A stretch of 64,000 nucleotides of DNA from Thermococcus sp. 2319x1 (GTDB taxonomy: Archaea; Methanobacteriota_B; Thermococci; Thermococcales; Thermococcaceae): assembly GCF_001484685.1 (NCBI RefSeq), contig NZ_CP012200.1, positions 1,110,321 through 1,174,320 of the forward strand. Reading direction: 5' to 3'. Position numbers and translations under genes: made by a program. Below, in pieces: positions 10,167 through 11,519 of this stretch. Positions within the stretch are counted from its first letter, which is position 1, and the number at the start of each line of letters is the position of its first letter. A model generated the notes under the pieces. It had not been told where the DNA came from. It was given only the letters and a program-made list of their open reading frames with translations, and ran no database searches.

Positions 10167-11069
10167 ATGTACTTGGTGACACTGAAGTTTAGAGTACACC
10201 CTCTTGCTTTATCCCTCTCAAACCCCAATGAGCTCTCACAGGAAATGCTAACATTAGATGGACCACTTGCGTTTGCAGAGTACTATAAAAAGAAACTCTC
10301 CACAAGCAAAGACTGGAGAATTAAATACTTAGAAGACACACTCTTTCCAAAAAAGGAATTAGAATGGGCTTCTAGCATTAAAAGCTCCTACCTATTGCCG
10401 ACCGTATTAGACAAAGAAAACGAAATAGTTAAATTACTGACTCCTATGGGGTTCTCTGCACTATTTTCCATTGATAATCAGCGTGCTAAATATGAGTACT
10501 CCAAGGGGAAATACCCAAGAAGGCTCGAATCTTCCCAAATAATCCTAAGATTGGGGCGCAGAGACGACATACTTAAAGCAGAGGTCTTCCGCAAGGCAAA
10601 GAATATAACCTTAACGAAACAAGTTAAACTCCCCAGTTCCCAGAGTGGGCCGTATAAGGCAGTCGATTACACAGTAAAACTCTACACTACTCATATATTG
10701 TGGGCGTCGATTGTAGATGGAATATCAAAAAAAGAACTTGAAGATCTTCTACTCATCCTCAAAAAGTTTGGAATAGGCAAGAAACGCAACATGGGATGGG
10801 GGGATCTGTTAGGATACAACATCTATGACTTAAAGAAAGACTCAGTAACGCCAGAGTTCATAATACATAGCAGCGATGACTCACGATACTTGGAGACCAT
10901 ACGACCAGTATCTCCAAAAAAGATTGCAGAACTCATAGGAAACCCTAATAGAAAGACTAGGAGCAAAAAGTACGTATTGATAGACTCCAAGCTGGAATAT
11001 GGGGCAGATGGGCCCCCCTATTGGAGGAGACAGCTCGTTGTTAAGTCCGCTTTATTCCAGATCACCTAA
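10167..11069 (+). CDS. Cas5-like RAMP subunit of the compact Cas10 cassette
   Basis: This protein of about 300 residues has the RAMP glycine-rich loop FGIGKKRNMGWGDLLGY near residue 210, resembling the Csm4/Cmr3/Csx10-type Cas5 proteins that bind the crRNA 5' tag. The start is uncertain: ATG 10167 has GGTGAT upstream, ATG 10158 is also in frame, and the open frame extends to 10125 inside the preceding gene. The last visible domain ends YWRRQLVVKSALF. It is the final gene of the cassette; 25 nt later the truncated cas1 begins. Confidence 0.65.
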   Translation: MYLVTLKFRVHPLALSLSNPNELSQEMLTLDGPLAFAEYYKKKLSTSKDWRIKYLEDTLFPKKELEWASSIKSSYLLPTVLDKENEIVKLLTPMGFSALFSIDNQRAKYEYSKGKYPRRLESSQIILRLGRRDDILKAEVFRKAKNITLTKQVKLPSSQSGPYKAVDYTVKLYTTHILWASIVDGISKKELEDLLLILKKFGIGKKRNMGWGDLLGYNIYDLKKDSVTPEFIIHSSDDSRYLETIRPVSPKKIAELIGNPNRKTRSKKYVLIDSKLEYGADGPPYWRRQLVVKSALFQIT

Positions 11070-11093
11070 AGTTTAAACCTGACAAGTTGGGAG

Positions 11094-11519
11094 ATGAACG
11101 CCCTGATAAGCTTCCTCAATTCGAGGCTCTACGCCACCATAGTTAGCGAGCTTTACAACACCCAACTGGCTCCAACGGTGAGTTACCTCCACGAGCCCGG
11201 TGAGAGGAGGTTTTCGCTCGCGCTCGACTTGAGTGAAATCTTCAAGCCGGTAATAGCCGACAGGATAGCGACGCGCCTCGTGAAGCAGGGGATAATCAGG
11301 AAGGAACACTTCAGAGAGGATCTAAACGGTGTCCTGCTAACAAAGGAAGGCATGAAGATAGTTCTGAAAGAATACACCGAAGAACTGGGCAAAAGCGTGA
11401 GGCATCTTGAGCTCAAGAGGAACGTGACAAAGCAGAGACTAATAAGGCTCGAGGCGTATAAGCTGATAAAACACCTCGTTGGAGTTAAAGAGTACGAGCC
11501 ACTGGTGGCGTGGTTCTGA
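11094..11519 (+). pseudogene. cas1: cas1 remnant, C-terminal part only
   Basis: The 141 codons from [16 protein letters not shown] to [16 protein letters not shown] match the C-terminal part of Thermococcales Cas1 (about 320 residues) almost residue for residue, from memory of the P. furiosus protein. The N-terminal domain and the region with the catalytic Glu are missing. The His ([14 protein letters not shown]) and Asp of the active site remain. The codon before ATG 11094 is gag, as in the intact gene, so the breakpoint lies within the 25 nt after the Cas5-like stop. It cannot integrate spacers alone. The higher-GC codon use matches the I-A operon, not the cassette. Confidence 0.88.

Follow-up and report, generated by a model that had tools for sequence, protein, structure and literature searches.

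We found that the CRISPR-Cas locus of Thermococcus sp. 2319x1 is most probably a hybrid locus that combines I-A with IV-C effectors and has a decayed adaptation module, in which the IV-C genes were imported by exchange and a deletion of ~2.4 kb hit cas4 and cas1. We assign this reading a probability of about 0.8. The window, i.e. the whole stretch of DNA analysed, comprises 64,000 nucleotides; all coordinates refer to it and features are on the forward strand (+) unless stated otherwise.

The frame at 11094-11519 encodes 141 amino acids and was identified by profile match as the C-terminal part of a Cas1b-type Cas1. It covered positions 184-323 of the 324 positions of TIGR03641 (E 5e-62) as well as positions 188-283 of 283 of PF01867 (E 1e-33), and corresponded to residues 182-322 of the 322-residue Cas1 of P. 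furiosus (PDB 4WJ0). The stop codon of csf3, the last gene of the IV-C cassette, lies at 11069 and the cas1 stump starts about 24-25 nt downstream of it. Ahead of the ATG the reading frame is open only back to the csf3 stop (SLNLTSWE-M), and the similarity to Cas1 begins at the Glu preceding Met182. When mapped to the P. furiosus protein, His214 and Asp226 were present and Glu149 was gone, leaving the Glu-His-Asp metal site of a functional Cas1 integrase incomplete; we take these three residues to be the catalytic positions. No remnant of Cas1 residues 1-181, the N-terminal domain, was detected anywhere within the window, nor was any leftover 5' cas1 or cas4 sequence. By analogy with known Cas1 structures, a stump in which both the N-terminal domain and one catalytic metal ligand are missing is expected to be inert. 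An earlier note on this DNA had described the 141 C-terminal Cas1 residues within 25 nt of the last cassette gene, with His and Asp but without Glu, cas6 on the other side of the cassette and a persisting Cas2. All of this could be confirmed: cas6 was found at 6302-7096 (PF01881, PF21350) and an intact cas2 at 17902-18159 on the reverse strand (PF09827, E 5e-24; 87-89% DNA identity to G005/G002).

The corresponding locus was compared among relatives. Three genomes of the same genus (G001, G002 and G005) contained, in order, nrdJ, cas6, an I-B effector module, cas4 and cas1, the nrdJ-cas6 order being common to them and the window; for all modules in this slot the label I-B rests on gene order and mutual homology (cas8-cas7-cas5-cas3). 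A I-A module followed cas1 in G001 and G005 and was absent there in G002, and then came a second cas6, cas2 and an array. Three genomes of another Thermococcaceae genus, g4, carried I-B in the slot where the window has IV-C (G103, G057 and G049). In G102, also of g4, the I-B slot was occupied by IV-C; behind it came, in this order, an ATPase gene, cas4, a cas1 that is intact, and I-A. The ATPase gene was also detected between the I-B cas3 and cas4 in G057 and G049. The ancestral order was probably cas6-[I-B effectors]-cas4-cas1-[I-A effectors]-second cas6-cas2-array. An ancestral arrangement of cas6 next to cas1, as the earlier note had proposed, was not found, since the relatives checked have I-B effectors and cas4 in between.

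The sequence similarity switches near both ends of a putative imported tract of about 4.3 kb (7010-11305), which comprises the 3' end of cas6, the IV-C cassette and the 5' half of the stump. As far as roughly base 7000, cas6 is native to the genus, with 87% DNA identity to G005/G002 and 71% to G102; beyond about 7010 the likeness to G002 gives way to one to G102. At the other end, the first 215 nt of the stump were nearest to g4 (G103 93.5%, G063 91.2%; G002/G005 83-84%) and the last 214 nt were nearest to G002/G005 (86-87%, compared with 75-80%), a mosaic that rests on 429 nt. With G103 and G002 as references, the informative sites were divided 30:9 before position 11306 and 10:36 from there on, a split that was not equalled in any of 1000 permutations. 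Most other pairs of reference genomes reproduced the mosaic; G102 with G001 did not. In trees of the two halves, the first half joined the window to G103 and the second to G002/G005, with moderate clade supports (0.85/0.93 and 0.59/0.87). Further downstream, cas2, csa3 and the leader were again same-genus-like.

Because the switch from donor-like to native sequence falls 215 nt inside the remaining cas1, near 11305, we propose that recombination ended there and that cas1 was cut within the imported tract and not at its edge. Had the cassette instead been inserted straight into cas1, the right edge of the cassette would be the stump junction, which fits the start of the stump 24 nt after csf3. 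Such an insertion does not account for the position of the switch, and G102 combines the cassette with an intact cas1, while stumps also exist without a cassette. On the grounds of the mosaic and G102 we rejected direct insertion, which we regard as distinctly unlikely. The earlier suggestion that the cassette replaced the N-terminal half of cas1 thus holds for its arrival between cas6 and cas1, but not for the cutting of cas1.

Pairwise comparison with G102 located a deletion scar at 11070-11091 (no strand assigned). Between the two sides of the scar G102 has 2,393 nt, containing the ATPase gene, cas4 and the cas1 codons before the EMNA motif. As the junction is known from the assembly of one strain, a 2.4-kb segment could have been collapsed or lost by assembly error and an intact cas1 exist. 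The genome is, however, a single contig of 1,961,221 bases with a completeness of 99.8%, the missing segment is non-repetitive, and the gap lies at a gene end and leaves about 15 nt of sequence without assignment. The neighbouring second cas6 was lost too. We therefore consider an assembly error very improbable.

The cassette at 7065-11069 is a set of four genes, which were typed against the PADLOC models for type IV-C or type IV. The Cas10-like large subunit of type IV-C (7065-8849; PDLC01221, 1162 bits) is followed by the Cas11 small subunit of type IV-C (8767-9216; PDLC01222, E 8e-58), Csf2 (Cas7) of type IV (9176-10138; PDLC01724, E 3e-82) and Csf3 (Cas5) of type IV-C (10125-11069; PDLC01728, E 9e-190). 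A five-way alignment of the large subunit revealed an invariant IHD motif and the absence of GGDD in all five genomes. Csf1 was absent from the cassette, the sole trace being a weak match of 60 residues inside Cas10. An HD motif without GGDD, together with the matches to the type IV-C models, therefore assigns the cassette to subtype IV-C and not to type III, as judged from sequence. What the earlier note called the Cas10 cassette is thus of type IV-C and has no GGDD, and the genes behind the stump are of type I-A. That the IV-C HD domain cleaves DNA under RNA guidance is a prediction only; IV-C is experimentally uncharacterised, and its interference activity is unproven anywhere (PMC12669027).

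In Thermococcaceae the large subunit of type IV-C is similar, over its first 16 residues (7065-7112), to the N-terminus of the I-B Cas8 that occupies this slot (VRTIGKEKRLDEFL in G102 compared with VRTIRKEKRLDKFL in G057), which fits an exchange of effector modules through common flanks. Beyond these 16 residues the IV-C Cas10 and the I-B Cas8 (L084/L026) look unrelated by eye. In G093 (L016) the IV-C cas10 is interrupted in frame by a single stop codon close to its end, which may be the real stop or an assembly error.

A search of the 1.96-Mb genome with PF01867 found only the stump, even at E<=10, and thus no second cas1, and no cas4 match to PF01930 was obtained in the complete genome. The Cas1-Cas2(-Cas4) adaptation set is therefore incomplete genome-wide, with cas2 present and neither an intact cas1 nor a PF01930 cas4. 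As the genome searches detected no further cas1 or cas4, adaptation has probably stopped; reliance on another cas1, the alternative offered in the earlier note, finds no support in them. The genome contains 53 repeats in five places, i.e. five CRISPR arrays, and three Cas6 genes. Among the spacer targets no plasmid match was detected, and one weak match to a Mycoplasma phage was probably due to chance.

Downstream of the stump lies a type I-A interference module (11706-17822) with csa5, cas7, cas5, csx9, cas3', cas3'' and csa3, all frames being open. The gene set of subtype I-A was recognised by family matches for csa5, cas7, csx9 and cas3''; cas5 and cas3' were assigned from their position and their counterparts in relatives. 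The cas3' and cas3'' genes (14919-17176) showed only about 67-73% DNA identity to all relatives, whereas the surrounding I-A genes were much more similar; this suggests that recombination brought in another tract here, from a source outside the sampled genomes. At 17791-17859 we found the first 23 codons of a second cas6 (tblastn, 69.6% over 23 aa), a remnant that marks a further deletion scar; this gene is whole at the corresponding place, between csa3 and cas2, in G001, G005 and G102. The presumed CRISPR leader (18160-18679; 80-82% identity to G005/G002 over 520 nt) is followed by an array of 22 repeats of 30 nt (18680-20150). The first three, leader-side repeats of this array and the last one carry TTCAAAAG, as do all other arrays in the genome, and the 18 middle repeats carry TTCAGAAG. 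New CRISPR repeats are copied from the leader end, and this pattern is therefore hard to explain by simple addition; it may result from recombination between arrays. Upstream of cas6, the ribonucleotide reductase gene (2321-6163) contains an apparent intein, the end of the insert being the typical VSNGFMSHN.

When 94 genomes of Thermococcaceae were searched at the DNA level for sequences like the stump, 3' remnants of cas1 without IV-C were detected in four of them, G105 (locus L080), G061 (L081), G083 (L079) and G007 (L078), with cas2 nearby. The remnant lies directly behind cas6 in G061 and G105, and a scrap of I-B cas8 intervenes in G083; the cas6 of G061 is itself incomplete and runs directly into the final 25 codons of cas1. 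Near these four stumps we found no I-A module like that of the window. A partial cas1 in G036 was rejected as a parallel stump, since it is cut by a contig end. The four stumps start at about residues 234, 277, 281 and 298, and because their breakpoints differ from that of the window we regard them as separate deletions. The earlier note had itself named relatives with the same stump but no cassette as an argument against its proposal; stumps of this kind do occur in these genomes, although with other breakpoints.

The stump might also function as a short protein in its own right, the C-terminal Cas1 domain serving, for example, as a regulator or binding partner. Its 141 codons are free of stops, a start codon is present shortly behind csf3, and pairwise dN/dS against the nearest relatives was low, about 0.05-0.12 (~0.05 for the first half against G103, ~0.11 for the second half against G002). 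The stand-alone form is, however, not conserved, as seen from the varied starts of the other stumps, no well-spaced ribosome-binding site is evident, and a low dN/dS is also expected from a young truncation. A functional stump thus appears highly improbable. Among five close sequences, seven of the changes unique to the window were silent and three were not. From the low dN/dS we infer that the truncation of cas1 is recent; continued selection on the stump is the less likely reading of the same values.

No intact cas1 was found in eight of the 66 good-quality, cas2-positive Thermococcaceae genomes (G000, G007, G046, G052, G059, G060, G083 and G105), three of which have IV-C. Any intact cas1 was missing in 3/5 genomes with IV-C and in 5/61 of the others (Fisher p 0.011, the genomes being related and few), and at the IV-C locus itself it was missing in four of the five. 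One explanation is that gain of IV-C favours loss of cas1, in that a fixed spacer set suffices and adaptation beside IV-C is harmful, so that cas1 is lost repeatedly. We consider this rather unlikely. Loss of cas1 is common here, and the present case is an ordinary decay of the adaptation module.

In the history that we propose, homologous recombination with Thermococcaceae DNA of another genus would have replaced a segment that begins at the 3' end of cas6 and ends midway through cas1, as the mosaic and G102 indicate, and this exchange would have swapped the I-B effectors for the IV-C cassette. A deletion of about 2.4 kb inside the segment, which may have preceded the transfer (in the donor) or followed it (in the recipient), would have placed cas1 codon 181 next to the end of csf3, with the loss of cas4 and of Glu149 of Cas1. 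Counting against this account of import and deletion, the genus to which the window belongs has no known intermediate that combines IV-C with an intact cas1. With no other cas1, new spacers would not be inserted and the memory is predicted to be frozen, while interference from a fixed memory should continue by means of the five arrays, Cas6 and the effectors of both types, I-A and IV-C.

The finding is a well-documented new instance of known processes, and losses of this sort are ordinary in relatives. With its intact counterpart in G102, it provides a clean example of how IV-C can take the place of I-B in a type I locus on the chromosome. The strain, which naturally has effectors of types I-A and IV-C and is predicted to have no route to new spacers, is also useful for asking whether IV-C interferes at all.

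Among known systems, the IV-C locus of T. onnurineus NA1 (G059; TON_0320/TON_0321) has the same order cas6-cas10-cas11-csf2-csf3 and has kept cas2 in a genome without cas1, an absence already published (PMC12538437). Unlike the window, it contained neither a cas1 stump nor a I-A module within the 20 kb examined, it retains a cas4-like gene beside cas2, and its Cas10 is only 58% identical. The MAG DJKA121_NP-J24_bin.11 (G102) resembles the window in its IV-C cassette between cas6 and cas1 (73-87% protein identity) and in having the same I-A module, but its ATPase gene, cas4 and full cas1 are intact, and a second cas6 and a second cas4-like gene are retained. The stumps of G061, G105, G083 and G007 share with the window that only the 3' end of cas1 is left, and differ in their lack of IV-C and in their breakpoints. 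Archaeal adaptation and interference cassettes are known to be exchanged as modules around common flanking genes, as reviewed for the Sulfolobales (PMC4390879); in the window, by comparison, the proposed swap is that of I-B for IV-C, and it is placed in the Thermococcaceae.
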